This document shows, one piece after another, positions 4,171 to 55,179 of a DNA stretch of 59,331 bases. Source of the stretch: Nitrospirota bacterium (GTDB lineage Bacteria > Nitrospirota > Nitrospiria > JACQBW01); assembly GCA_016178585.1 (NCBI GenBank), contig JACOTA010000040.1:1-59331 (forward strand), given 5' to 3'. How positions within the stretch are numbered: the first letter of the stretch is position 1; every line of letters begins with the position of its first letter. The position numbers were made by a program, and so were the translations under genes. Below the pieces are notes generated by a model, which did no database searches, had not been told where the DNA came from, and worked only from the letters and a program-made list of their open reading frames with translations.

Positions 4171-5448
4171 ATGAACATTCAGACAATTAAAGGGTTTAAA
4201 GATATTCTTCCGGATGAAATCCCGAAGTGGGACTTTGTCGAACAGCTCCTCCGGAAACTGTTTAAAAGCTACCACTATAAAGAGATCAAGCTCCCGATTC
4301 TTGAAGAGACCACCCTGTTTGCCAGAAGCATCGGGACTGGAACCGATATTGTTGAAAAAGAGATGTACACCTTCGACGACCGTGACGGAAAGAAAATCAC
4401 CCTCCGCCCGGAAGGGACCGCTTCGGCAGTTCGGGCTTATATCGAACATAACCTCCAGGCCACCTTACCGCTCGTTAAATTATTCTATATCGGGCCGATG
4501 TTCCGGCATGAACGGCCTCAAAAGGGACGGTTCCGGCAGTTTTATCAGGCCGGGGTCGAGGCGCTCGGACAATCGGGGCCGTTCCAGGATGTGGAAATCA
4601 TCTCTCTTCTTTCTGAATTTTTTCGGGAACTGGGGTTTAAAACAGATGTTCATCAAATTGTTTCCCTTGAAATCAACTCTGTCGGGTGTCCTCAATGCCG
4701 GCCAGGTTATAAGCTGGTTCTCCAGGAATATTTAAAAAAGAAAACGTCGGAGCTTTGCGAAAATTGCCAGCGCCGGACTTTAACCAATCCGATGAGAGTT
4801 CTTGACTGTAAGAACGAAGCCTGCCAGAAAGCAATTCATGATGCCCCTGAAATGACAAAATCTCTCTGCCAGGAGTGCGATGACCATTTTAAGGAGGTTA
4901 AAAACGGACTTCATATTTTAAAAATCTGCTTTCATCTTAACCCGCGGCTGGTCAGAGGGCTCGATTACTACACGAAAACCGCTTTTGAATGGAAATCGGG
5001 GAGCCTTGGAGCCCAAAACACCATTGCGGCCGGAGGGAGATACGACGGCCTGGTCGAGGAGCTGGGTGGCGGAAGTACTCCGGGAATCGGGTTTGCCATC
5101 GGACTGGAGAGGACGATCTCCTTAATCGATCCTGGGCTCCTTCCAGCTGAAGAAATCGATCTTTTTATCGCCGCCCTCGGGAAAAAAGCCCAGAACACAG
5201 CCCTGCCGATCCTGTCCGGTTTGAGAGAAAAAGGAATGATCGCCGAGATGGATTTTCAAAACGCGAGCTTAAAGAGCCAGATGAAAAAAGCCGATAAGTA
5301 TAACGCCCGTTATGTGCTGATTATCGGCGAAGATGAACTGAAATCCGGCAGGGCGACGCTCCGCCAGATGAAAACAAAAGAGCAGGAGGAGGTCCCTCTT
5401 CAGGCGATCAGAGAGACCCTTCTTGAAAAACTGACCCCCCCTAATTGA
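4171..5448 (+). CDS. hisS: Histidyl-tRNA synthetase
   Basis: A 425-residue class II aminoacyl-tRNA synthetase that charges tRNA-His in the cytoplasm. It starts IQTIKGFKDILPDE, typical of HisRS. Motif 2 is FRHERPQKGRFRQFYQ, the histidine-binding loop is RGLDYYTKTAFEW, and motif 3 is GIGFAIGLER. GGRYDGLVEELGG precedes motif 3. The C-terminal 90 residues form the anticodon-binding domain. A four-cysteine stretch (CPQC, CENC, CQKA, CQEC) lies in the insertion domain. Length is normal. Its last 8 bp overlap the end of the convergent epimerase gene. Confidence 0.97.
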   Translation: MNIQTIKGFKDILPDEIPKWDFVEQLLRKLFKSYHYKEIKLPILEETTLFARSIGTGTDIVEKEMYTFDDRDGKKITLRPEGTASAVRAYIEHNLQATLPLVKLFYIGPMFRHERPQKGRFRQFYQAGVEALGQSGPFQDVEIISLLSEFFRELGFKTDVHQIVSLEINSVGCPQCRPGYKLVLQEYLKKKTSELCENCQRRTLTNPMRVLDCKNEACQKAIHDAPEMTKSLCQECDDHFKEVKNGLHILKICFHLNPRLVRGLDYYTKTAFEWKSGSLGAQNTIAAGGRYDGLVEELGGGSTPGIGFAIGLERTISLIDPGLLPAEEIDLFIAALGKKAQNTALPILSGLREKGMIAEMDFQNASLKSQMKKADKYNARYVLIIGEDELKSGRATLRQMKTKEQEEVPLQAIRETLLEKLTPPN

Positions 5449-13270: not shown

Positions 13271-14287
13271 CTAAATTGTTCTGCCCACCGCAGGGGCCAA
13301 TTTTCTTAGCTCATCCATCATTTGTTTAAAACGGGGGGGCTTCAAAGATTCTTCTCCATCGGATAGCGCTTTTTCAGGATCCAAATGGACCTCGATCATT
13401 AACCCGTCAGCGCCGGCCGCAATGGCCGCCTTCGCCATGGGGATCACCAATTCCCATCTTCCCGTCCCATGAGAAGGATCGACAATAATGGGAAGATGGC
13501 TGAGCTGTTTAATCACGGGAACAGCCGATAAATCAAGGGTGTTTCGGGTCGAAGGTTCAAACGTTCGAATACCCCTTTCACACAAAATAACCTGATGGTT
13601 TCCACGGGACATAATATATTCAGCGGCCATTAAAAACTCTTTAATGGTGGCCGAAAGGCCCCGCTTGAGGAGAACCGGCTTACGGTAATTGCCGACCTCC
13701 TGCAAAAGCCTGAAATTCTGCATGTTTCGGGTCCCGATCTGAAGAATGTCCGAATGTTTTGCAACCAGTTCCACCTCTTTGGTGTCCATGACTTCAGTCA
13801 CAATTAAAAGGCCCGTCTTCATTTTTGTTTCAGAAAGGTAGTTCAACCCTTGCTCTCCTAATCCCTGAAAAGTGTAGGGTGAGGTGCGGGGCTTAAAAGC
13901 TCCCCCTCTCAGAATATGGGCGCCCGCTTCTTTAACCGCCTCGGCGACCTGCAATAAAATTTCAGCGCTTTCCACGGCACAGGGACCGGCCATCACCTCA
14001 ATCTTCTTATCGCCGATTTTTACTCCGTTCTCAAACTCAATCACAGTATTCTCTTTCTTAAACTCCCTGCTGACTAATTTATAGGGGGATAATATCGGCA
14101 TCACTTTTTCAACTCCCGGGAAAATAGACAAAGGGAGGCTTTCCAACACCCGATCATCTCCAATAGCCCCGATGATGGTCCGTTCCTTCCCCTTTGAAAC
14201 ATGGGCGGTTAATCCGAGCGCGCTCAGCCTTTCGGAAATATGATCGATCTCACTTTGCGTAGCGTTTGGTTTTAATACAATAATCAT
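13271..14287 (-). CDS. aroF: 3-deoxy-7-phosphoheptulonate (DAHP) synthase, type I-beta
   Basis: A 338-residue first enzyme of aromatic amino acid synthesis. Residues 1-70 are the ferredoxin-like regulatory domain of the I-beta type (IIVLKPNATQSEIDHISERL). The catalytic barrel has MAGPCAVES, LRGGAFKPRTSPYTFQG, LKRGLSAT and VDPSHGTGRWE. The N-terminal domain usually gives allosteric feedback control. R1 copy A lies between it and hisC upstream; its ribosome site AAGGGGAT lies just after the repeat. Confidence 0.95.
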   Translation of the reverse strand: MIIVLKPNATQSEIDHISERLSALGLTAHVSKGKERTIIGAIGDDRVLESLPLSIFPGVEKVMPILSPYKLVSREFKKENTVIEFENGVKIGDKKIEVMAGPCAVESAEILLQVAEAVKEAGAHILRGGAFKPRTSPYTFQGLGEQGLNYLSETKMKTGLLIVTEVMDTKEVELVAKHSDILQIGTRNMQNFRLLQEVGNYRKPVLLKRGLSATIKEFLMAAEYIMSRGNHQVILCERGIRTFEPSTRNTLDLSAVPVIKQLSHLPIIVDPSHGTGRWELVIPMAKAAIAAGADGLMIEVHLDPEKALSDGEESLKPPRFKQMMDELRKLAPAVGRTI

Positions 14288-14303: not shown

Positions 14304-14389
14304 ATTTTATTCAGGGGCCTTCGAGAAAATCATTCTCAATGCCCCCGAACCCCGCGTTCCGCACTGGCAAAGCCAGTTGCTTCACTTAA
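14304..14389 (-). repeat. R1 two-hairpin repeat, copy A
   Basis: Read on the minus strand it has a first hairpin, ACTGGC-TTT-GCCAGT, a GC-rich linker (GCGGAACGCGGGG), then a larger hairpin with GGGGGC ... GGCCCC arms around GAGAATGATTTTCTC. It ends in AATAAAAT. It fills the hisC-aroF gap in the direction of transcription, ending 16 bp before the aroF ATG. Confidence 0.8.
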
Positions 14390-14394
14390 TTCCT

Positions 14395-15471
14395 TCAAGT
14401 TTGTAATCGCAAAAATTGTTTGAGTTTGAGTGTAAATTTTTTATTTTCATCCGGCTTCCCAATGGTGACTCTCATTTGTTTTCCCTTGATATGCCGGATA
14501 ATAATCCCTTCCTTAAGCATCCAATCAAAAAGTTCCGGACCTTTTTCAACCTCAAAAAAGATAAAGTTCGTTTCCGTTGGCACATATTTAATACGCATTT
14601 CATCAAAACATGGGTAAAGATAATTTTTCCCATCAATATTATTTTGCCGGCTGGCTCTCAGGTGGAATTCATCCCCAAGCGCCGCAAGCGCCGCCTTTTG
14701 CGAAAGCAAGTTTGTATTAAACGGCTGCCTGACTTTGTTGAGCGTTTCTATCATCTTTTCAGAACCAATCCCATAGCCGATTCTCAAACCGGCCAGGCCG
14801 TAAAGCTTCGAAAAGGTCCTTAAAATGACGATATTTTCATGCCGGTTAATTTCTCCGATTAAATTAGAATAGGTCGCATCCGTAACATATTCTTCATACG
14901 CATGGTCAAAGACCAGAACGATGTCCGACGAAACCTGGTTGATAAACTCCATGATTTCATGCCTGGGGAGAAGGGTCCCCGTCGGGTTATTCGGATTACA
15001 AATAAATATCATCCGGGTTCGGTCGGTGATCTTTGCCGCCATCGTTCCTAAATCATGCCGATCCGCCTTTAAAGGAACGGTCACGACTTTGGCATGAGCC
15101 ACTTCGGTCATCATCGAGTAAAGCGAAAAAGTTAAATCCGCCATGATCACCTCATCGCCCGGAAGCAAAAATGCCCGCGTGAGCAATTCAATCAGTTCAT
15201 TGGAACCGTTTCCCAGGGCAACTTGTGAGGGGAAAACCTTTAACCGCTCTGCCAATGCCAGGACCAGATCATAGCCATTTCCATCCGGATACCGAAAAAT
15301 ACTCTTCTTAAACTGACTGATCGCCTTCAAAGCCATGGGAGAGGGACCCAGGGGGTTTTCGTTAGAGGCAAGTTTAATAATCCGGTTCAGCCCCATTTCC
15401 CTCTTTAGCTCTTCAATCGGCTTGCCCGCTTTATAAGGGATGATTTTTTGAATGTTTTCGGGAATTTTCAA
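14395..15471 (-). CDS. hisC: Histidinol-phosphate / aromatic aminotransferase
   Basis: A 358-residue pyridoxal-phosphate aminotransferase of class I/II. NPNNPTGTLLPR and the Schiff-base lysine in TFSKLYGLAGLRIGYG are present, along with GNGSNELIELL. In this operon, between pheA and aroF, it probably also transaminates aromatic keto acids. It starts 1 bp after pheA. Confidence 0.93.
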   Translation of the reverse strand: MKIPENIQKIIPYKAGKPIEELKREMGLNRIIKLASNENPLGPSPMALKAISQFKKSIFRYPDGNGYDLVLALAERLKVFPSQVALGNGSNELIELLTRAFLLPGDEVIMADLTFSLYSMMTEVAHAKVVTVPLKADRHDLGTMAAKITDRTRMIFICNPNNPTGTLLPRHEIMEFINQVSSDIVLVFDHAYEEYVTDATYSNLIGEINRHENIVILRTFSKLYGLAGLRIGYGIGSEKMIETLNKVRQPFNTNLLSQKAALAALGDEFHLRASRQNNIDGKNYLYPCFDEMRIKYVPTETNFIFFEVEKGPELFDWMLKEGIIIRHIKGKQMRVTIGKPDENKKFTLKLKQFLRLQT

Positions 15472-16612: not shown

Positions 16613-16641
16613 AATATATGATAATTCAAAGACTTTTGCAA
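16613..16641 (-). promoter_or_regulatory. Sigma-70-like promoter for the pheA operon
   Basis: On the minus strand TTGCAA and TATATT are separated by 17 bp, about 70 bp upstream of the pheA ATG at 16540. This gap (16541-16758) is divergent between pheA and the plus-strand outer-membrane gene. I see no leader peptide. Confidence 0.55.
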
Positions 16642-16758
16642 TCCTTTTATTTTTTTATGTTTGATTATGAATCTTTATTTATGTTAAAAACGGTACAGCT
16701 TGTTTTAAACTTTAATCAATCATACCGATTTTCGGTTCTTCTGTTAAGGGAATTTTCT

Positions 16759-17463
16759 ATGAATAAAAAAATGATGTTGATTTTATTTGCCGCTATCGGG
16801 TTCTTCGTTTTTTCCGCCGAAAGTCACGCGGCTCCGATTGGGAATCCAACCGCCCAAACGCCCTCCCAAAAGCTCTCCATCGGTCCGCTTATCGATATTT
16901 ACTCGCAGGATTTTAAGGCAAACGGCTACCGAATAACCGGAAAAGGGAATCGATTGTTCTTGAATTTTAATTACGGTGTTGATCGGAACGTCAATTTTTT
17001 TGGGAATGCCGGATTTTCAAAAGAAGACCTTGAATTCGGAGGCAACACCTATTCCGGAAACTATGGGATGGGGGTTCAATTCGGAGCCAGAGCGACCCTC
17101 GGAGAACTTCGCCCGGAGCATATCAAATTTGGGGGCGGGGCAAAACTGTTGCTCGCCCGAAGTTCGGTCGATTTCTCGCCGACCCTTAAAAGTGACGTCG
17201 ATTGGACGGAATTCGGCTTATTTGGAGGAATGAGTTTTGAATCCCAATCCGATATGACGCCTTACCTGGGCCTTCAGATCGCCAAAACCGCAAGCAACAT
17301 TAAAGACCCGCCGGCAGGCATCCAGTCCAATTTCGACGAAGATGGATTGATCGGTTTATTCGGGGGGCTCGATTTGAAAATTCAAAAAGATATTTCGATT
17401 GGAATGGAATTGAGAATTTTAAATGAAATTTCGGCTGCCCTGAATTGCAACTTTTCCTTTTAG
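16759..17463 (+). CDS. Outer-membrane beta-barrel protein of unknown function
   Basis: About 234 residues from the ATG at 16759, which has AAGGGA upstream; the frame open from 16618 is not needed. A Sec signal peptide (MNKKMMLILFAAIGFFVFSA, then a SHAAP cleavage site) precedes alternating amphipathic strands rich in G, N and aromatic residues, ending LRILNEISAALNCNFSF with a terminal aromatic as in assembled barrels. It looks like an opacity-type small porin. R1 copy B follows directly after the stop. Confidence 0.7.
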   Translation: MNKKMMLILFAAIGFFVFSAESHAAPIGNPTAQTPSQKLSIGPLIDIYSQDFKANGYRITGKGNRLFLNFNYGVDRNVNFFGNAGFSKEDLEFGGNTYSGNYGMGVQFGARATLGELRPEHIKFGGGAKLLLARSSVDFSPTLKSDVDWTEFGLFGGMSFESQSDMTPYLGLQIAKTASNIKDPPAGIQSNFDEDGLIGLFGGLDLKIQKDISIGMELRILNEISAALNCNFSF

Positions 17464-17554
17464 CAAAGCAACCGGCTTCGCCGGTGCAAAGCGCGGGGCT
17501 TGGGGGCATTTGAGGATTTTGCGCAGCAAAACCGGAGAGGCCCCCAAATAATGA
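17464..17554 (+). repeat. R1 two-hairpin repeat, copy B (divergent)
   Basis: It starts right after the outer-membrane gene stop. The first hairpin is ACCGGC-TTC-GCCGGT with compensatory changes relative to other copies. The second arm pair GGGGGC ... GGCCCCC is kept, but the apical part (GAGGATTTTGCGCAGCAAAACC) is different. It sits between two convergent genes and could act as a terminator. Confidence 0.7.
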
Positions 17555-34104: not shown

Positions 34105-34221
34105 GAGTGAAGCATCTGGCTCCGCCAGTGACGGATTTGGAAATGGTCGTAGTTAGACCGAGCGAAACCCGGGGGTTCGGGGGCATTGAGAGTGATTTTC
34201 TCGAAGGCCCCTGATTATAAT
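34105..34221 (+). repeat. R1 two-hairpin repeat, copy C (with insert)
   Basis: The first hairpin is TCTGGC-TCC-GCCAGT. About 38 extra bases follow, then the shared CCCGGGGGTTCGGGGGCATTG with hairpin GAGAGTGATTTTCTC, GGCCCC and a terminal TATAAT at 34216-34221. It ends 2 bp before the tlpA ATG, leaving no room for a normal ribosome site after the repeat. Confidence 0.75.
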
Positions 34222-35574: not shown

Positions 35575-36759
35575 ATGATATACGATGTCATTATCATCGG
35601 CATGGGCCCCGCCGGTTCCACCGCCGCATATGAGGCGGCTTCGCGCGGCCTTTCCGTGCTGGCCCTGGATCAATCCGCTTTCCCCCGGTATAAAGCCTGC
35701 GGAGGGGGGCTGACCACAAAAATTCATCAACTTGTAGACCTTGAAAACCTTTCCTGTATTGAAAATCGGATCTCTTCGTTCCGGTTAAGTTATCGATCAC
35801 ATCAAAAAACCTTCCATCAGGATAAGCCCTTTGCTTATCTCGTCATGAGGGACCAGTTTGACCAGATGCTGGTTGAGCGGGCGGTCAAAGCCGGCGTCGA
35901 CTTTAAAGGAGAAACCAGGGTTCAAAAAATCGATGAACAGAATGATTTAATGGAAGTTCATACCGACTGTCTGACTTTTAAAGCAAGAGTGGCTGTCGGA
36001 GCAGACGGCGCTCTGGGATTCACCACCCGATGGCTGAATCCCTGTTTAAAGTCAAAAAACGCACCGGCCCTGGAAGGAGAGTTTAAACGAAATCACGACC
36101 CGGTGGATTCTTCGAGTATTGAAATTGAGGTGGGCGCCGTTGAGTCGGGATATGGCTGGATATTTCCGAAAAGGGAATGCCTTTCCATCGGGGCCGCAAG
36201 TTTTTCCGGAAACCAGAAGATTAAAAAATCCTATCAATCCTATATGACTGAAGTGTTTTCAAAAACAAACCCTTCACTTTTGCTTCCCGATCCTCCTCCA
36301 AAGCCGGCCGTCTGTTTAAAAGAAACCGGACACCCTATTCCGATCTTCACAAGCCCAGGGTTAAAACTGGTCTCCAAAAGATTGATGTTGGCCGGCGATG
36401 CCGGACATCTCGTTGACCCGTTTTTCGGAGAAGGAATTTATTATGCCATGCGAAGCGGGCAAATTGCGGGCAGGGCTTCCGAAACTTTCATCAAAAAAGG
36501 CGCCTCCCTTAAAGGATATGCCAAAAAAATTGAAAAAGAATTTTACCCTGAATTCAGGGGAGCAAAAAGGATGGCCTGGCTGATTTACCGTTTTCCCGGG
36601 CTATGGTTCGACCTGACCCTGAAACATCCAGGGGTGATTCAACTTTACACCGAAGTCCTGGCCGGAAAACGGGAATATCGAAACTTTTTGTCAACGGTGC
36701 TAAAAACCGCATTTAAAAAAATTCTGCTCCCGAATTCATTCATTAAACGTTTAGTTTGA
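35575..36759 (+). CDS. Geranylgeranyl-reductase-family FAD-dependent oxidoreductase
   Basis: A 394-residue flavoprotein. The FAD motif is VIIIGMGPAGSTAAYEAASRG and the second FAD motif is LAGDAGHLVDPFFGEGIYYA. PRYKACGGGLTTK is characteristic of the geranylgeranyl reductase family, which saturates isoprenoid chains. In a bacterium it could reduce quinone side chains or other prenyl groups. It overlaps the convergent panC by 17 bp. Confidence 0.85.
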   Translation: MIYDVIIIGMGPAGSTAAYEAASRGLSVLALDQSAFPRYKACGGGLTTKIHQLVDLENLSCIENRISSFRLSYRSHQKTFHQDKPFAYLVMRDQFDQMLVERAVKAGVDFKGETRVQKIDEQNDLMEVHTDCLTFKARVAVGADGALGFTTRWLNPCLKSKNAPALEGEFKRNHDPVDSSSIEIEVGAVESGYGWIFPKRECLSIGAASFSGNQKIKKSYQSYMTEVFSKTNPSLLLPDPPPKPAVCLKETGHPIPIFTSPGLKLVSKRLMLAGDAGHLVDPFFGEGIYYAMRSGQIAGRASETFIKKGASLKGYAKKIEKEFYPEFRGAKRMAWLIYRFPGLWFDLTLKHPGVIQLYTEVLAGKREYRNFLSTVLKTAFKKILLPNSFIKRLV

Positions 36760-37588
36760 CGTTGTCGATCAGGCGGGTTTTTCCGATCCAGACCGCGAGC
36801 AGAATGACCGCTTCCCGGGCGACCACCTCGATCTCATCGAGATTTTCCGGATGGACAATCCGGACATAATCAATTTTTGACAACGGTTCGTTTTTGATTT
36901 CATTCTCAATAACCGCTCTTAAAACAGAAACCCGCTGTTCTCCCTTGCGGAAAGTTTCCTCTCCCTTTTTCATGGCCCTATATAAGACCCTGGCCGCTTT
37001 CCGTTCCCCGGGCTTTAAATAACAGTTTCGGGAACTCATCGCAAGACCATCCGGTTCTCTGACCGTCGGCATCACCTCTAATTTAACGGGAATAAAAAAA
37101 TCATGAATCATTTTCCTGACAATAACGGTTTGCTGAAAATCCTTTGCTCCCATAAAGAGCCAATCCGGCTGAACAATATTCAAGAGTTTCAAAACAATGG
37201 TCGCGACACCCTGAAAATGCCCGGGCCGGCTCGCGCCGCATAATCGTTCCGACAATTTCTCAATCTTCACCATCGCCAGGGGATTTTTTCCGATTATTTC
37301 ATCCGCTTCCGGAAGAAAAAGGTGATGGGCTCCTGCGTCACGGCATTTTTGAGCATCTCCCATGGGGTCTCGAGGGTACTTTTCAAGATCTTCGTCGGGA
37401 CCAAATTGCAATGGATTGACAAAAACAGAAACCACGACCTGAGGACATCTTCGAACCGCCTCTTTGATGAGCGAAGTATGCCCTTCATGAAGGAACCCCA
37501 GGGTTGGAACAAACCCGATAGGTTGATTGTTTTTACGCAAAGAAGCGGAAATGGCCTGCATTTCTTCGAGGCTGACGATCTCTTTCAT
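36743..37588 (-). CDS. panC: Pantothenate synthetase
   Basis: A 281-residue ligase joining pantoate and beta-alanine. The HIGH-type motif is PTLGFLHEGHTSLI (H34, H37). FVNPLQFGPDEDLEKYPRD, FMGAKDFQQTVIVRKM and MSSRNCYL are diagnostic. It is the last gene of the long argD-led block; R1 copy D lies upstream. Confidence 0.95.
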   Translation of the reverse strand: MKEIVSLEEMQAISASLRKNNQPIGFVPTLGFLHEGHTSLIKEAVRRCPQVVVSVFVNPLQFGPDEDLEKYPRDPMGDAQKCRDAGAHHLFLPEADEIIGKNPLAMVKIEKLSERLCGASRPGHFQGVATIVLKLLNIVQPDWLFMGAKDFQQTVIVRKMIHDFFIPVKLEVMPTVREPDGLAMSSRNCYLKPGERKAARVLYRAMKKGEETFRKGEQRVSVLRAVIENEIKNEPLSKIDYVRIVHPENLDEIEVVAREAVILLAVWIGKTRLIDNVKLNV

Positions 37589-37604: not shown

Positions 37605-37684
37605 TATATTCAGGGGCCTTCGAGAAATTCACTCTCAATGCCCCCAAACCCCAAGTTCCGCGCTGGCAGAGCAGTCGCTTCACT
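37605..37684 (-). repeat. R1 two-hairpin repeat, copy D
   Basis: Minus-strand reading gives a decayed first hairpin (CTCTGCCAGCG), GGAACTTGGGGTTTGGGGGC, the GAGAGTGAATTTCTCG hairpin and GGCCCCTGAATATAG. It touches the dgk stop codon and ends 16 bp before the panC ATG, in the direction of transcription. Confidence 0.75.
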
Positions 37685-38337
37685 TATTTAATTTTCATCG
37701 GATTGTAATATTGTATTCCGGTTTTCATTAGACGGATTTGCTTAAGAAGGTCTTCGAGCTCTTCACGGGATTTAACAAAATCAATATCATTCGTCTGAAT
37801 CACCAGAAGAGGAGATTCACTATAATTGAAAAAGAACTGATTGTAATTTTCAATGAGAACCTGAAGATATTCTTCTTCAATTTCTTTCTCAAAATCACGG
37901 CCTCGTTTTTTAATGCGCTGAAAAAGCGTTTTAGGTTCCGCTTGAAGATAGATCACCAGATCCGGTTTTGGAATTTGAGCGGTTAATAACTGCTGAATCT
38001 GCTGGTAAAGATTAAACTCTTCATCATTTAAATTAATAGAAGCAAAGATTTTGTCTTTCGCGTATAAATAATCCAAAATGGTGCTTTTTGAAAAGAGATC
38101 GAGTTGAAAGAGCTCTTGCTGCTGGCGGTATCGCGAAAAAAGAAAGAAAAGCTGGGTCTGAAAAGCATATTGTTCAGGCTGGTGATAAAATTTAGCTAAA
38201 AAAGGATTTTCCTCCGCTTTTTCCAAAAGAACCCGCCCCTTTAACTCCTTCGCTAAAATTTGAGCAAAAATGGTCTTTCCAACGCCAATCGGCCCTTCAA
38301 TCGCAATATAACGGTGGTCCTTTCCCTGTTCTTTCAT
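37684..38337 (-). CDS. Deoxynucleoside kinase (dGK/dCK family)
   Basis: A 217-residue kinase of the deoxyribonucleoside salvage family. The P-loop is IEGPIGVGKTIFAQILAKEL. FLFSRYRQQQELFQ, a DYLYAKDKIFA segment, and the lid RIKKRGRDFEKEI follow. Substrate (dG, dA or dC) cannot be read from sequence. It overlaps the end of folK by 4 bp. Confidence 0.88.
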   Translation of the reverse strand: MKEQGKDHRYIAIEGPIGVGKTIFAQILAKELKGRVLLEKAEENPFLAKFYHQPEQYAFQTQLFFLFSRYRQQQELFQLDLFSKSTILDYLYAKDKIFASINLNDEEFNLYQQIQQLLTAQIPKPDLVIYLQAEPKTLFQRIKKRGRDFEKEIEEEYLQVLIENYNQFFFNYSESPLLVIQTNDIDFVKSREELEDLLKQIRLMKTGIQYYNPMKIK

Positions 38338-41891: not shown

Positions 41892-42000
41892 AAGTGAAGC
41901 AACTGGCTTCGCCAGTGCGAAACCTAGCGAGCAAAGCGAGTGAGAGGGGGAAGCTTCATCCGGCTTTGCCGGTGAAGGGGGCGACGCGAGCCCCTATATT
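41892..42000 (+). repeat. R1/R2 composite repeat, site F
   Basis: It begins with the R1 left arm (GTGAAGCAACTGGC-TTC-GCCAGT) and continues with R2: CGAGCAAAGCGAG, then CCGGCTTTGCCGG, and GGGGGCGACGCGAGCCCC followed by TATATT. Its reading direction is opposite to the flanking minus-strand genes. It covers the end of lysA by two bases. Confidence 0.75.
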
Positions 42001-43255
42001 AGAGGAGACCGGGCGGAATTTTTTCGCGCCGGATTAAATCCTCATAATCTTCCCGCTCCCGGATGATCATATATTTGTCTCCCCGGACCAGCACCTCAGG
42101 AATATTAGGCCTTGAATTATAATGGGACGCCATTGAAAAGCCGTAGGCCCCTGCACCCATCACGGCCAGTAAATCACCGGCGACAAGTTCAATAATTTCA
42201 CGGTCTTTCGCGAAAAAATCACCCGATTCGCAAACGGGACCCACAACATCCACTTTTCTTAAAGGCCTGTCTGTTTGAACAACCGGTTTAATCTCATGAT
42301 AAGCCTGATATAAAGCCGGCCGGATTAAATCAGACATCCCCGCATCAACGACTAAAAAATTTTTTTCGGAGGACGCTTTCGTAAACAGCACCTGAGAAAC
42401 GAGCGCCCCGGCATTCCCAACCAACGATCTTCCCGGCTCCAAAATGACCGTACAGCCAATTTCCCGGAGCAAAGGAGAAAGGGCTTCCGCCATCTGACCG
42501 GGAAGGGGAGGCGACTCGTGATCATAAGTAATTCCCAGACCACCTCCGATATCGAGAATGGAGATTTCAATTCCGTTGGCCCTGAGTTTGCGAATAAACT
42601 CCGCGATTTTGGTCAGAGCGTCCACAAAAGGCTTTAAATCGGTCAATTGAGAACCGATATGTTGATGAATTCCAACCACCTTAATGTGAGATAACGCGCG
42701 GGCCTCCAGATATCCATTCATCGCAAGGTCAATATCAATTCCAAACTTGCTTTGTTTCATTCCTGTAGAAATATAAGGATGGGTGAGGGGATCGATATTA
42801 GGATTAACTCTCAAAGCCACCGGCGCAATTTGACCTTCAGATTTTGCTACCTCATTGATCAGGGCAAGTTCCTGCGAAGACTCGACGTTAAACATTAAAA
42901 TATTTGCCCGAAGGGCGGAGGCAATTTCTCCCCGCATTTTCCCGACACCGGCAAACACAATTTTTTCAGGGGGGATCCCGGCGCGAAGCGCTCTGAAAAG
43001 TTCCCCTCCCGAAACAATATCCGCCCCGCCGCCCAGATTGCCGAAGATTTTCAAAATGGACAGGTTGGAGTTGGCTTTTGCTGCATAGCAAATTAAATGA
43101 GGGAGTTCCTTAAAGGCGGTCTCAAAGGCCTTAAAATGGCGAACGAGGGTCTCATGACTGTACAAATAAAATGGCGTCCCGACGTCTGAAGCGATTTTGG
43201 AAATGGAAACGCCCTCGCAATACATTTCATTTTTTATATAATGAAAGTCATTCAT
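41999..43255 (-). CDS. lysA: Diaminopimelate decarboxylase
   Basis: A 418-residue pyridoxal-phosphate enzyme making lysine. The cofactor lysine is K60 in CYAAKANSN, with GVHQHIGSQL-like IHQHIGSQLTDL and GGGLGITYD binding phosphate. GPVCESGDFFAKDR and YGFSMASHYNSRP complete the site. Its stop codon touches repeat site F. It follows the LptM-like gene by about 10 bp. Confidence 0.96.
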   Translation of the reverse strand: MNDFHYIKNEMYCEGVSISKIASDVGTPFYLYSHETLVRHFKAFETAFKELPHLICYAAKANSNLSILKIFGNLGGGADIVSGGELFRALRAGIPPEKIVFAGVGKMRGEIASALRANILMFNVESSQELALINEVAKSEGQIAPVALRVNPNIDPLTHPYISTGMKQSKFGIDIDLAMNGYLEARALSHIKVVGIHQHIGSQLTDLKPFVDALTKIAEFIRKLRANGIEISILDIGGGLGITYDHESPPLPGQMAEALSPLLREIGCTVILEPGRSLVGNAGALVSQVLFTKASSEKNFLVVDAGMSDLIRPALYQAYHEIKPVVQTDRPLRKVDVVGPVCESGDFFAKDREIIELVAGDLLAVMGAGAYGFSMASHYNSRPNIPEVLVRGDKYMIIREREDYEDLIRREKIPPGLL

Positions 43256-43264
43256 ATCACGAAT

Positions 43265-43444
43265 TTAACACAAACGGATAACAAGGTGGCGGATTTCCTC
43301 AAGGGACGGGCTTCCGTGCCAGTTCAGGGCGTTCGCTTCGGGGGGAATAGGATCCCCCTTCCGCCCGCATCCCGCCAACAAAAATAAAATGACCAGAAAC
43401 GCCGCCGTTTTTCCTAATTTTTTTTCTTTTAAAGAGTGTCTCAA
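43265..43444 (-). CDS. LptM/YifL-like small lipoprotein
   Basis: A 59-residue protein from a TTG start. A basic N-terminus (RHSLKEKKLGKT) and hydrophobic stretch lead to a lipobox LAGC (C26), then GRKGDPIPPEANAL. The GCGxKGxPxPP motif is that of LptM/YifL lipoproteins, which help LptD assembly and often sit beside dapF or lysA. It lies between argH and lysA with a few bases either side. The start codon and lack of a strong ribosome site keep some doubt. Confidence 0.7.
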   Translation of the reverse strand: MRHSLKEKKLGKTAAFLVILFLLAGCGRKGDPIPPEANALNWHGSPSLEEIRHLVIRLC

Positions 43445-43462
43445 AGAAAGTCTGCAGGTTGT

Positions 43463-44854
43463 TTAACGTCTTTTTCCCAGTTTTTCCAGCCTTTTGATCA
43501 CCTGTGAGGTGGCCGTCCCTCCAATGACATTCCGTTTATTAATGGAAGAAGAAAGGCTGAGGTTCAAAATGTCTTTCTGAAAGAATTTAGAGAACGAGCG
43601 GTACTCTTTTAACGAAAGATCTTCAAGGTATTTCTCGTGTTCCATACAATAACGAACCAGTTTTCCAACCAATTCATGCGCTTTTCTAAAGGTCATTCCC
43701 TTCTCAACAAGGTAATCTGCGATATCGGTTGAAAGAAGATATCCTTTCTGCAACCCCTGAAGCATCCTTGGACGATTGACCTTTAGTTTTGATAAAAGTT
43801 CGGCATAAATCGATAAAACGTTCTTAACCAGGTCAATGGTTTCGAACAAGGGCTCTTTATCCTCCTGGAGGTCCCGATTATAAGCCAATGGAAGCCCCTT
43901 CATCATCGTCAGGGCGGAAAAAAGATTTCCATAGACCCGTCCGGTTTTTCCCCGAACCAGCTCCGGAATATCAGGATTTTTCTTTTGGGGCATCATACTG
44001 CTTCCCGTGCAAAACTCATCCGGAAGGTCGACAAATCCAAATTCCGTTGAGGACCATAAAATCAATTCCTCGCTTAAACGGGACAGATGCATCATCAGAA
44101 CGGAGGCAAAGGAATGAAACTCAATCACGAAATCGCGATCGCTCACGGCGTCGAGGCTGTTCTGGCTGATTTCGGGAAAATCAAGGAGCCGGGCGGTATA
44201 TTCCCGATCGAGGGGAAACCCGGGACCGGCAAGGGCTCCCGAACCCAGGGGCATGACATCGATCCGTTTTAATAAATCGATGAGCCTCTCTTGATCCCGC
44301 TCAACCATTTCATAATAGGCCAGAATATAGTGGGAAAAAAGGATCGGCTGAGCTTTTTGAAGATGGGTGTACCCGGGCATGATCACCTCTAAATGATCTT
44401 TGGCCAGATGAAAAAAAACTTCCTGCAGTCGGCCTAGCAGACCTGCGATTTCAAAGACTTCGTGCTTTAAATAAAGCCGCAAGTCCAAAACAACCTGATC
44501 ATTCCGGCTTCGGCCCGTATGGAGTTTTTCTCCTGCCGGGCCTATTTTTTCGATTAACCGTTTTTCGATGCTCATGTGGATATCTTCAGACGCCTCCGAG
44601 AACTTAAATTTACCGGTTTCAATCTCTTTTAAAATCCCTTCCAGTCCCATGATAATTTTATTCCGTTCATTTGGAGTCATGATATTCGCCCGGCAGAGCG
44701 TTTTACAATGGGCAATACTTCCCTGAATATCTTGACGGTAAAGCCGCCGGTCAAAATGAATCGATGCCGTGAATTTTTCAACGCTGGAAAGGGTGGCTTC
44801 CTGAAAACGTCCGCCCCATAATTTTTTGTTCGCTCTGTTTTTCGGTTGGGTCAT
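43463..44854 (-). CDS. argH: Argininosuccinate lyase
   Basis: A 463-residue lyase giving arginine and fumarate. LWGGRFQEATLSSVEKFT opens the protein and the fumarase-family signature is TGSSMMPQKKNPDIPE. HTGRSRNDQVV and GYTHLQKAQPI are also present. Its start touches the end of argG, so they are translated in sequence. Confidence 0.97.
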   Translation of the reverse strand: MTQPKNRANKKLWGGRFQEATLSSVEKFTASIHFDRRLYRQDIQGSIAHCKTLCRANIMTPNERNKIIMGLEGILKEIETGKFKFSEASEDIHMSIEKRLIEKIGPAGEKLHTGRSRNDQVVLDLRLYLKHEVFEIAGLLGRLQEVFFHLAKDHLEVIMPGYTHLQKAQPILFSHYILAYYEMVERDQERLIDLLKRIDVMPLGSGALAGPGFPLDREYTARLLDFPEISQNSLDAVSDRDFVIEFHSFASVLMMHLSRLSEELILWSSTEFGFVDLPDEFCTGSSMMPQKKNPDIPELVRGKTGRVYGNLFSALTMMKGLPLAYNRDLQEDKEPLFETIDLVKNVLSIYAELLSKLKVNRPRMLQGLQKGYLLSTDIADYLVEKGMTFRKAHELVGKLVRYCMEHEKYLEDLSLKEYRSFSKFFQKDILNLSLSSSINKRNVIGGTATSQVIKRLEKLGKRR

Positions 44855-54328: not shown

Positions 54329-55098
54329 AAAGCCAGCTCGAAAAAATAGGCCGGCCAACACTCGATTTTTTAAAAAAAGTCGGGGCCGCCTTTACGATGT
54401 TTTTTCAGGCCCTCAGATGGACCTTTACACCTCCCATTTATTTCAGAAATATCCTTCAGCAAATGGAAGTCATCGGGGTTCAATCGATTCCCGTTGTATT
54501 AATCACTGCCCTCTCAACAGGAATGGTGCTGGCCCTTCAAAGTCATACCGGATTTAAGCGGTTTCACGCGGAGAACCTGGTGGGAACGGTTGTCGCCCTC
54601 TCCCTCACGCGTGAACTGGGACCTGTGTTAACCGGTCTCATCGTTGCAGGCCGTGCGGGCGCAGCCATGGCGGCAGAACTGGGAACGATGAGGGTCACCG
54701 AACAAATCGACGCCCTGAGCACTCTTGCCGTAAATCCGGTTAAATATCTGATCATCCCCCGCCTCATCGCGGGGTTTATCATGCTGCCTATTTTAACCAT
54801 TTTTGCCGATATGATCGGAATTATCGGCGGGTATTTTGTTTCTGTAGAAACTCTGTCGGCAAATCCGGTCATCTATCTTCGTCGTACAACCGAATTTCTT
54901 GAAGGAAATGATATTTTTGGGGGCTTGCTTAAAGCCTGTGTGTTTGGTATCTTGATTTCCATCATTTGTTCATACAAAGGATTTACGACAGAAGGGGGAG
55001 CGGTGGGAGTTGGAAAAGCGACCACCGGCGCAGTGGTGCTCTCTATGATTTTGATCATCGTTTCTGACTACTTTTTAACAAACCTTTTGTTTAAATAA
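54325..55098 (+). CDS. mlaE: Mla lipid ABC transporter permease (MlaE family)
   Basis: About 257 residues from the ATG at 54325, overlapping the alr stop; the frame open from 54151 is repeat DNA. Five or so helices; SIPVVLITALSTGMVLALQS, ELGPVLTGLIVAGRAGAAMA and EQIDALSTLAVNPVKYL are MlaE signatures. It pairs with MlaF to move phospholipid between membranes. R1 copy E separates it from mlaF. Confidence 0.94.
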   Translation: MKSQLEKIGRPTLDFLKKVGAAFTMFFQALRWTFTPPIYFRNILQQMEVIGVQSIPVVLITALSTGMVLALQSHTGFKRFHAENLVGTVVALSLTRELGPVLTGLIVAGRAGAAMAAELGTMRVTEQIDALSTLAVNPVKYLIIPRLIAGFIMLPILTIFADMIGIIGGYFVSVETLSANPVIYLRRTTEFLEGNDIFGGLLKACVFGILISIICSYKGFTTEGGAVGVGKATTGAVVLSMILIIVSDYFLTNLLFK

Positions 55099-55179
55099 GC
55101 AAGGATCAGGCTTTGCCAGTCCGAGCGCGGGGTTCGGGGGCATTGAGAGTGATTCTCTCGAAGGCCCCCGAATATAATA
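55099..55179 (+). repeat. R1 two-hairpin repeat, copy E
   Basis: TCAGGC-TTT-GCCAGT is a weak first hairpin; GCGCGGGGTTCGGGGGCATT, hairpin GAGAGTGATTCTCTC, then GGCCCCC and TATAAT at 55173-55178. The probable mlaF TTG start is 3 bp further on. It is co-oriented with the mla genes. Confidence 0.8.

Follow-up and report, generated by a model that had tools for sequence, protein, structure and literature searches.

A modular two-hairpin repeat dispersed in Nitrospiria, with a strong sense bias between co-directional genes

Small dispersed repeats of bacteria usually lie at gene ends and show little orientation preference. The repeat described here, R1, shares traits with several of their families. 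The BOX element of Streptococcus pneumoniae (boxA-boxB(n)-boxC) has fixed 5' and 3' parts and a variable number of tandem inner modules, as R1 does. Both are dispersed, both fold if transcribed, and copies of both nest with other repeats. BOX is over-represented between convergent genes (PMC3049150), whereas R1 lies mainly between co-directional genes, in sense. R1, unlike BOX, also exchanges the apex of its second hairpin. Modular architecture alone is common to BOX and R1, the host is a group of Nitrospiria and not Streptococcus, and no common sequence was seen, short of a base-by-base comparison with boxA and boxC. ERIC/IRU of the enterobacteria resembles R1 in being an insertion of about 100 nt in operons. 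ERIC insertions in Yersinia have a processing or stability effect on RNA that depends on orientation and is exerted in one orientation (PMC2229807). However, ERIC is a single long palindrome-like unit of 127 bp, whereas R1 consists of two separate hairpins.

The Beta-proteobacterial repeat element (BRE) of Bordetella is similar in length (about 75-91 bp), is GC-rich and intergenic, and differs in tandem number between species. It reaches up to 29 copies and belongs to another phylum, and no orientation rule with respect to genes was seen for it (PMC3110155). REP, BIME and REPIN sequences are, like R1, intergenic hairpin repeats with more than 100 copies, and R1 has a short unpaired tag (GAAG/GCGAG) before hairpin 1. 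REP is defined by a GTAG/CGTC tag, inverted dimers and a RAYT (PMC3733652). R1 has no GTAG/CGTC tag and has two hairpins instead of a single short one, no R1-flanked RAYT was found, and its arrays are head-to-tail with one inverted neighbour pair only. An assignment to the RAYT-associated REP was therefore rejected. Palindrome-associated elements derived from IS200/IS605 share with R1 the absence of terminal inverted repeats, the subterminal hairpins at both ends, and a constant AT-rich flank. In contrast to these, no autonomous element with R1-like ends was found, and the orientation of R1 follows transcription. Within this known class of small bacterial repeats, R1 is unusually one-directional.

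R1 was recognized in a stretch of 59,331 nucleotides (the window), positions 1 to 59,331 of contig JACOTA010000040.1 from a Nitrospirota bacterium (assembly GCA_016178585.1). An earlier note on this DNA had listed five copies. All five were found where it had put them, and a sixth, partial copy at 41893-41923 had been overlooked. The copies in the window are:

R1 copy A, 14304..14389, minus strand: between an aminotransferase gene (14395-15471, hisC-like) and aroF (13271-14287).
R1 copy B, 17462..17552, plus strand: with the CGG/CCG form of the stem; it lies in a convergent gap, 3' of the weakly supported ORF 16618-17463.
R1 copy C, 34105..34221, plus strand: with one extra 32-nt module GACGGA..GGTCGTAGTTAGACCGA, between a DUF2007-like ORF and a tlpA-like gene (ATG 34224).
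R1 copy D, 37605..37684, minus strand: between a deoxynucleoside kinase gene (37684-38337) and panC (36743-37588).
R1 copy E, 55097..55179, plus strand: between mlaE (stop ends 55098) and mlaF (TTG 55182).
Hybrid copy, 41893..41990, plus strand: R1 hairpin 1 (41893-41923) fused to R2, another structured repeat that reaches about 41990; the copy is antisense to the gene on either side.

The four copies in operons end 17 bp (aroF), 16 bp (panC), 2 bp (tlpA) and 2 bp (mlaF) before the next start. The earlier description of R1 as abutting starts holds as a strong bias and not as a rule; copy B lies in a convergent gap. The first base of copy D is overlapped by the kinase stop codon. The ORF 5' of copy B (16618-17463) scores weakly as coding sequence and matches nothing in Pfam; it may be no gene. 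At 41893-41990, R2 (GAGAGGGGGAAGCTTCATCCGGCTTTGCCGGTGAAGGGGGCGACGCGAGCCCCTA) comes after hairpin 1 of R1, and R1 is nested within R2 in other families (L118, L119, L207).

One 86-nt query gave 54 matches in the 2.45-Mb genome (E <= 0.001), and a covariance model made from 45 copies gave at least 146 (E < 0.01), so the likeness among the window copies is not due to chance. The nearest named relatives of a protein encoded in the window come from Nitrospirae/Nitrospiria MAGs. R1 is present in 17 genomes of the relatives search, from several families of the class Nitrospiria. Two genomes of the same family as this one carry 72 (G001) and 18 copies (G002), several genomes from other Nitrospiria families carry 20-30 apiece, and two genomes reached via named Manganitrophus/Manganitrophaceae records carry 17 and 18. 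Copies elsewhere in the class (several Nitrospiria families, including Candidatus Manganitrophus) are diverged. Family f2 had no R1 in any of its ten genomes in the relatives search, and a wider draw from the phylum, under stricter filters, matched one further genome. No R1 was found by an exact 20-mer scan of named genomes or in eighty named loci (Nitrospirota and others) around one gene. The phage, plasmid and viral-contig collections gave no match, and Rfam gave none at the gathering threshold or at E <= 1; carriage by phage or plasmid and membership of a known structured RNA family were rejected on these grounds. R1 appears to be undescribed, as far as the limited evidence of the literature searched goes.

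On the sense strand the unit reads AGTGAAGC-A-ACYGGC-TTN-GCCRGT-GC, followed by the linker GGAACGCGGGGTTC, the base of hairpin 2 (TTCGGGGGC...GGCCCCTGAA) with its variable apex, and the end AATATA. The 5' start is AGTGAAGC or AAGCGAG, and the consensus of hairpin 1 is R-CYGGC-TTN-GCCRG. R1 is about 80-145 bp long and modular. A hairpin at the 5' side is followed by a 32-nt hairpin module, which is optional and may be tandem, and then by a G-rich linker and hairpin 2. The 32-nt unit (GACGGACTTGGGAATGGTCGTAGTTAGACCGA) is present in 0 to 4 head-to-tail copies between hairpin 1 and the linker and is absent from most R1 copies. The base of hairpin 2 is GC and fixed, and the cassette at its apex can be exchanged. 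Its apex types are GAGAG..CTC, GAGCG..GCG and CGGAGG..CCGCACG, besides long cassettes (the automatic sorting of these is crude and was used qualitatively only). At the orthologous junction L032 (this genome) and L232 (G001), the flanks, hairpin 1 and the base of hairpin 2 agree, and the apical cassette differs. Eight arrays of R1 are head-to-tail, and the one inverted neighbour pair flanks a tRNA. The sense strand is 36% G and 23% C. AATA precedes the repeat, and the sequence after it is A-W-W-R-rich.

The compensating change that had been reported for a stem of copy B was borne out, and such changes were found throughout the family, in both hairpins. Within the genome, 5 of 18 pairs have changed on both sides. 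In a class-wide alignment of 43 copies, 96.4% of the pair cells hold standard pairs, and changes on both sides are seen in 85 cells, compared with 25.6 in shuffles and 5-14 in slid controls. Covariation is strong in both stems; the score (0.336, against 0.131 shuffled) was reached by none of 500 shuffles and lies above every slid control. Relatedness is lost in the shuffles but kept in the slid controls, which also fall far short. On the sense strand, G-U wobbles outnumber those of the A-C type. The ratio is 97:3 within the genome, or about 16:3 when two fixed G-U columns are set aside, and 31:10 for the class-wide copies with the outermost pair left out. The sense fold is more stable than the antisense fold in 122 of 123 copies, with mean energies of -40.2 and -30.6 kcal/mol, respectively. 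Selection on structure, which the earlier note had suggested, is thus supported for the sense strand. Covariation, wobble bias and better folding in sense fit a structure that acts either in the sense RNA or in one given strand of the DNA. A switch in which the linker CGGGG competes with hairpin 2 for the 3' arm was dropped, since the extra pair is not kept in the Manganitrophus copies.

Orientation was counted in stretches around detected copies (loci chosen around R1), with a home-made codon-usage gene caller and tRNA calls. Among 90 co-directional gaps with R1, 83 hold sense copies only, 6 hold antisense copies only and 1 is mixed. The sense to antisense ratio falls with residual spacer, from 63:0 (<60 bp) to 18:3 (60-150 bp) and 13:4 (>=150 bp). 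The claim that R1 always faces with transcription therefore stands as a strong bias (83:6) and fails as an absolute. Antisense copies occupy large gaps and tRNA 3' ends, one is in the window (41893), and relatives have them more often. Relatives show a weaker bias: G001 has 26 sense and 7 antisense copies relative to both neighbours, Manganitrophus-type loci give 15:2, and three copies in G005 are all antisense. That antisense copies are missing precisely where spacer is not spare points to selection and not to a rule of insertion.

The next start lies 0-30 nt 3' of R1 in 70 of 96 gaps. In about 22 copies the upstream stop codon overlaps the first five bases of R1 (9 TGA, 11 TAA, 2 TAG), and R1 bases make up part or all of these stop codons. 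Beside tRNA and tmRNA genes, the 3' end of R1 points at the gene, from either side and within 2-20 nt in most cases. This placement accounts for three antisense exceptions and hints at target specificity. Several copies lie 2-15 nt ahead of tmRNA or tRNA genes (L120 2448-2891; L035 2781-2959; L205 1425-1593; L246 about 4995-5080), and would thus belong to 5' leaders processed by RNase P. Antisense copies with the 3' end 2-13 nt from a tRNA 3' end are seen in this genome and in G001 (L031 988-1143; L078 462-622; L036 2968-3157; L219; L222; L228).

The junction of copy A (hisC-aroF) is empty in G001 (L256) and G002 (L257), as is that of copy D (dNK-panC) in both genomes. The junction of copy C (DUF2007-tlpA) is without R1 in G002 (L260), and no R1 lies ahead of tlpA in G001 (L261). 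No R1 is present at the junction of copy E (mlaE-mlaF) in G001, where the genes overlap by ATGA. All four operon junctions of the window are therefore R1-free in genomes of the same family, and the window copies look like insertions. With 4 of the 4 operon junctions tested empty, R1 is read here as a dispersing insertion and not as a fixed regulator of the window operons. The reverse case was also found, two G001 copies being empty in this genome (L216 vs L016). With its full and empty orthologous sites, R1 qualifies as a MITE or non-autonomous mobile element in the broad sense. On these comparisons, R1 copies come or go at gene junctions at the genus level, and loss in relatives could explain single empty sites. 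Some sites are apparently common to genera (L232/L032, L243/L020, next to tRNA-Trp, tRNA-Val and tmRNA). These suggest retention and perhaps function, or may instead reflect repeated insertion at one place.

We consider it fairly probable that R1 is a non-autonomous, modular, BOX- or ERIC-like dispersed repeat that spreads in certain Nitrospiria, its sense copies being tolerated in operons and its antisense copies removed by selection. Copies would disperse within these genomes and enter gene junctions. There, after the upstream stop codon and before the downstream Shine-Dalgarno (SD) sequence or start, the sense transcript is predicted to fold into a pair of compact hairpins, and the stop codon would often be supplied by the first bases of R1 itself, AATAAGTGA. 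Such a compact fold at the stop/start junction would allow R1 to be tolerated inside operons. In antisense, the transcript would have less structure and be rich in C, and might thereby act as a Rho-dependent polar signal; antisense insertions in tight operons would be removed by selection. Copies may secondarily protect or process polycistronic RNA. The placement in divergent gaps, where R1 is often 12-22 nt ahead of the start of the sense gene despite much free spacer, is not well predicted by plain tolerance and counts against it.

A role of R1 in RNA processing or stability is possible. In the main rival explanation, to which we give a rather low probability, R1 would be a domesticated module for this purpose. 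Its GC-rich hairpins end in AU-rich, single-stranded AATATAAATA, and an endonuclease of the RNase E/Y or III type would cut there between cistrons. The upstream mRNA would then keep a hairpin that protects its 3' end, and the downstream mRNA would begin with a short leader. The strict sense orientation at tight junctions, the conserved sense-strand structure, and the AT-rich 3' edge that adjoins SDs and the 5' ends of tRNA and tmRNA are all consistent with such cleavage. Sites probably retained between genera would agree with it, as would, by analogy, the one-orientation action of ERIC in Yersinia (PMC2229807). However, most of the window junctions tested work without R1 in relatives, and a sense-only function does not accommodate the antisense copies that relatives carry or that lie at tRNA 3' ends. 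A rather low probability likewise goes to a reading of R1 as a portable module of intercistronic RNA. In it, a pair of mobile hairpins would take up places at stop/start junctions, provide the stop codon of the upstream gene, and persist in sense as an RNA-level separator of cistrons (a cleavage or stability boundary). If this is true, a selfish repeat rewires operons by moving.

It is improbable, in our judgement, that the mechanism of insertion itself sets orientation and place, with R1 entering, in single-stranded form in the manner of IS200/IS605 or REP or by another route, beside the A/AATA-rich purine tracts that precede start codons on the sense strand. The AATA and A-W-W-R-rich flanks without a target-duplication signal (79 solitary copies), the head-to-tail arrays, and the two hairpins without terminal inverted repeats are in line with such an entry; so are the 3' ends that face tRNA edges on both sides and the orientation that matches the sense gene in divergent gaps too. 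The ends of R1 (AGTGAAGC and CCTGAATATA) are not inverted repeats, and this, together with the missing target duplication, rules out a classic MITE. Y1 transposase genes are present in this genome. No R1 was found within the scanned flanks of 26 Y1 transposase loci from this and other R1-bearing genomes, and the R1-bearing genomes G002, G036, G040 and G041 gave no Y1_Tnp match, so mobilization by RAYT/Y1 was rejected as a general mechanism. Antisense copies do exist, but only where the spacer is large, as selection predicts. With no transposase linked to R1, no terminal inverted repeat and no target duplication, mobility is read from empty versus full sites only. As a separate observation, the RAYT-like Y1 transposase gene at L012 1100-1790 (G000:C18 about 43100-43800) has a GTAGGGGCAGGTCCCCGTGCCTGCCC REP on its flanks and is also interrupted by it in frame; gene and repeat form a classic GTAG-tagged REP/RAYT pair distinct from R1. 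From reading the sequence, L011 1-900 holds a putative group II intron-like RNA and a truncated reverse transcriptase beside a Y1 transposase gene.

An intrinsic attenuator or translation-control switch for the host operons is highly improbable: stable hairpins do lie right before start codons, and the computed mean unpaired probability of the SD region is 0.55 with R1 vs 0.64 without, but the longest T runs 3' of the hairpins are 1-3 nt with no U-tract, scans of copies A and E gave no terminator-like site (an intrinsic terminator was rejected on these grounds), the frequency of SDs downstream of R1 is about equal to that of all genes (67% vs 58%), and the carriers are unrelated genes, tRNAs and tmRNA, with orthologous operons empty. 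The attenuation proposed in the earlier note is thus unlikely as far as intrinsic attenuation is concerned, and a specific role in translation control is not indicated.

R1, a family found across the class, enters translationally tight and even overlapping junctions at a sense to antisense ratio of 63:0, with stop codons at its 5' edge and an apical cassette that is swapped at a fixed site. It thus amounts to a natural experiment that asks what operons will tolerate between neighbouring genes, and whether RNA processing sites arise from mobile hairpins.
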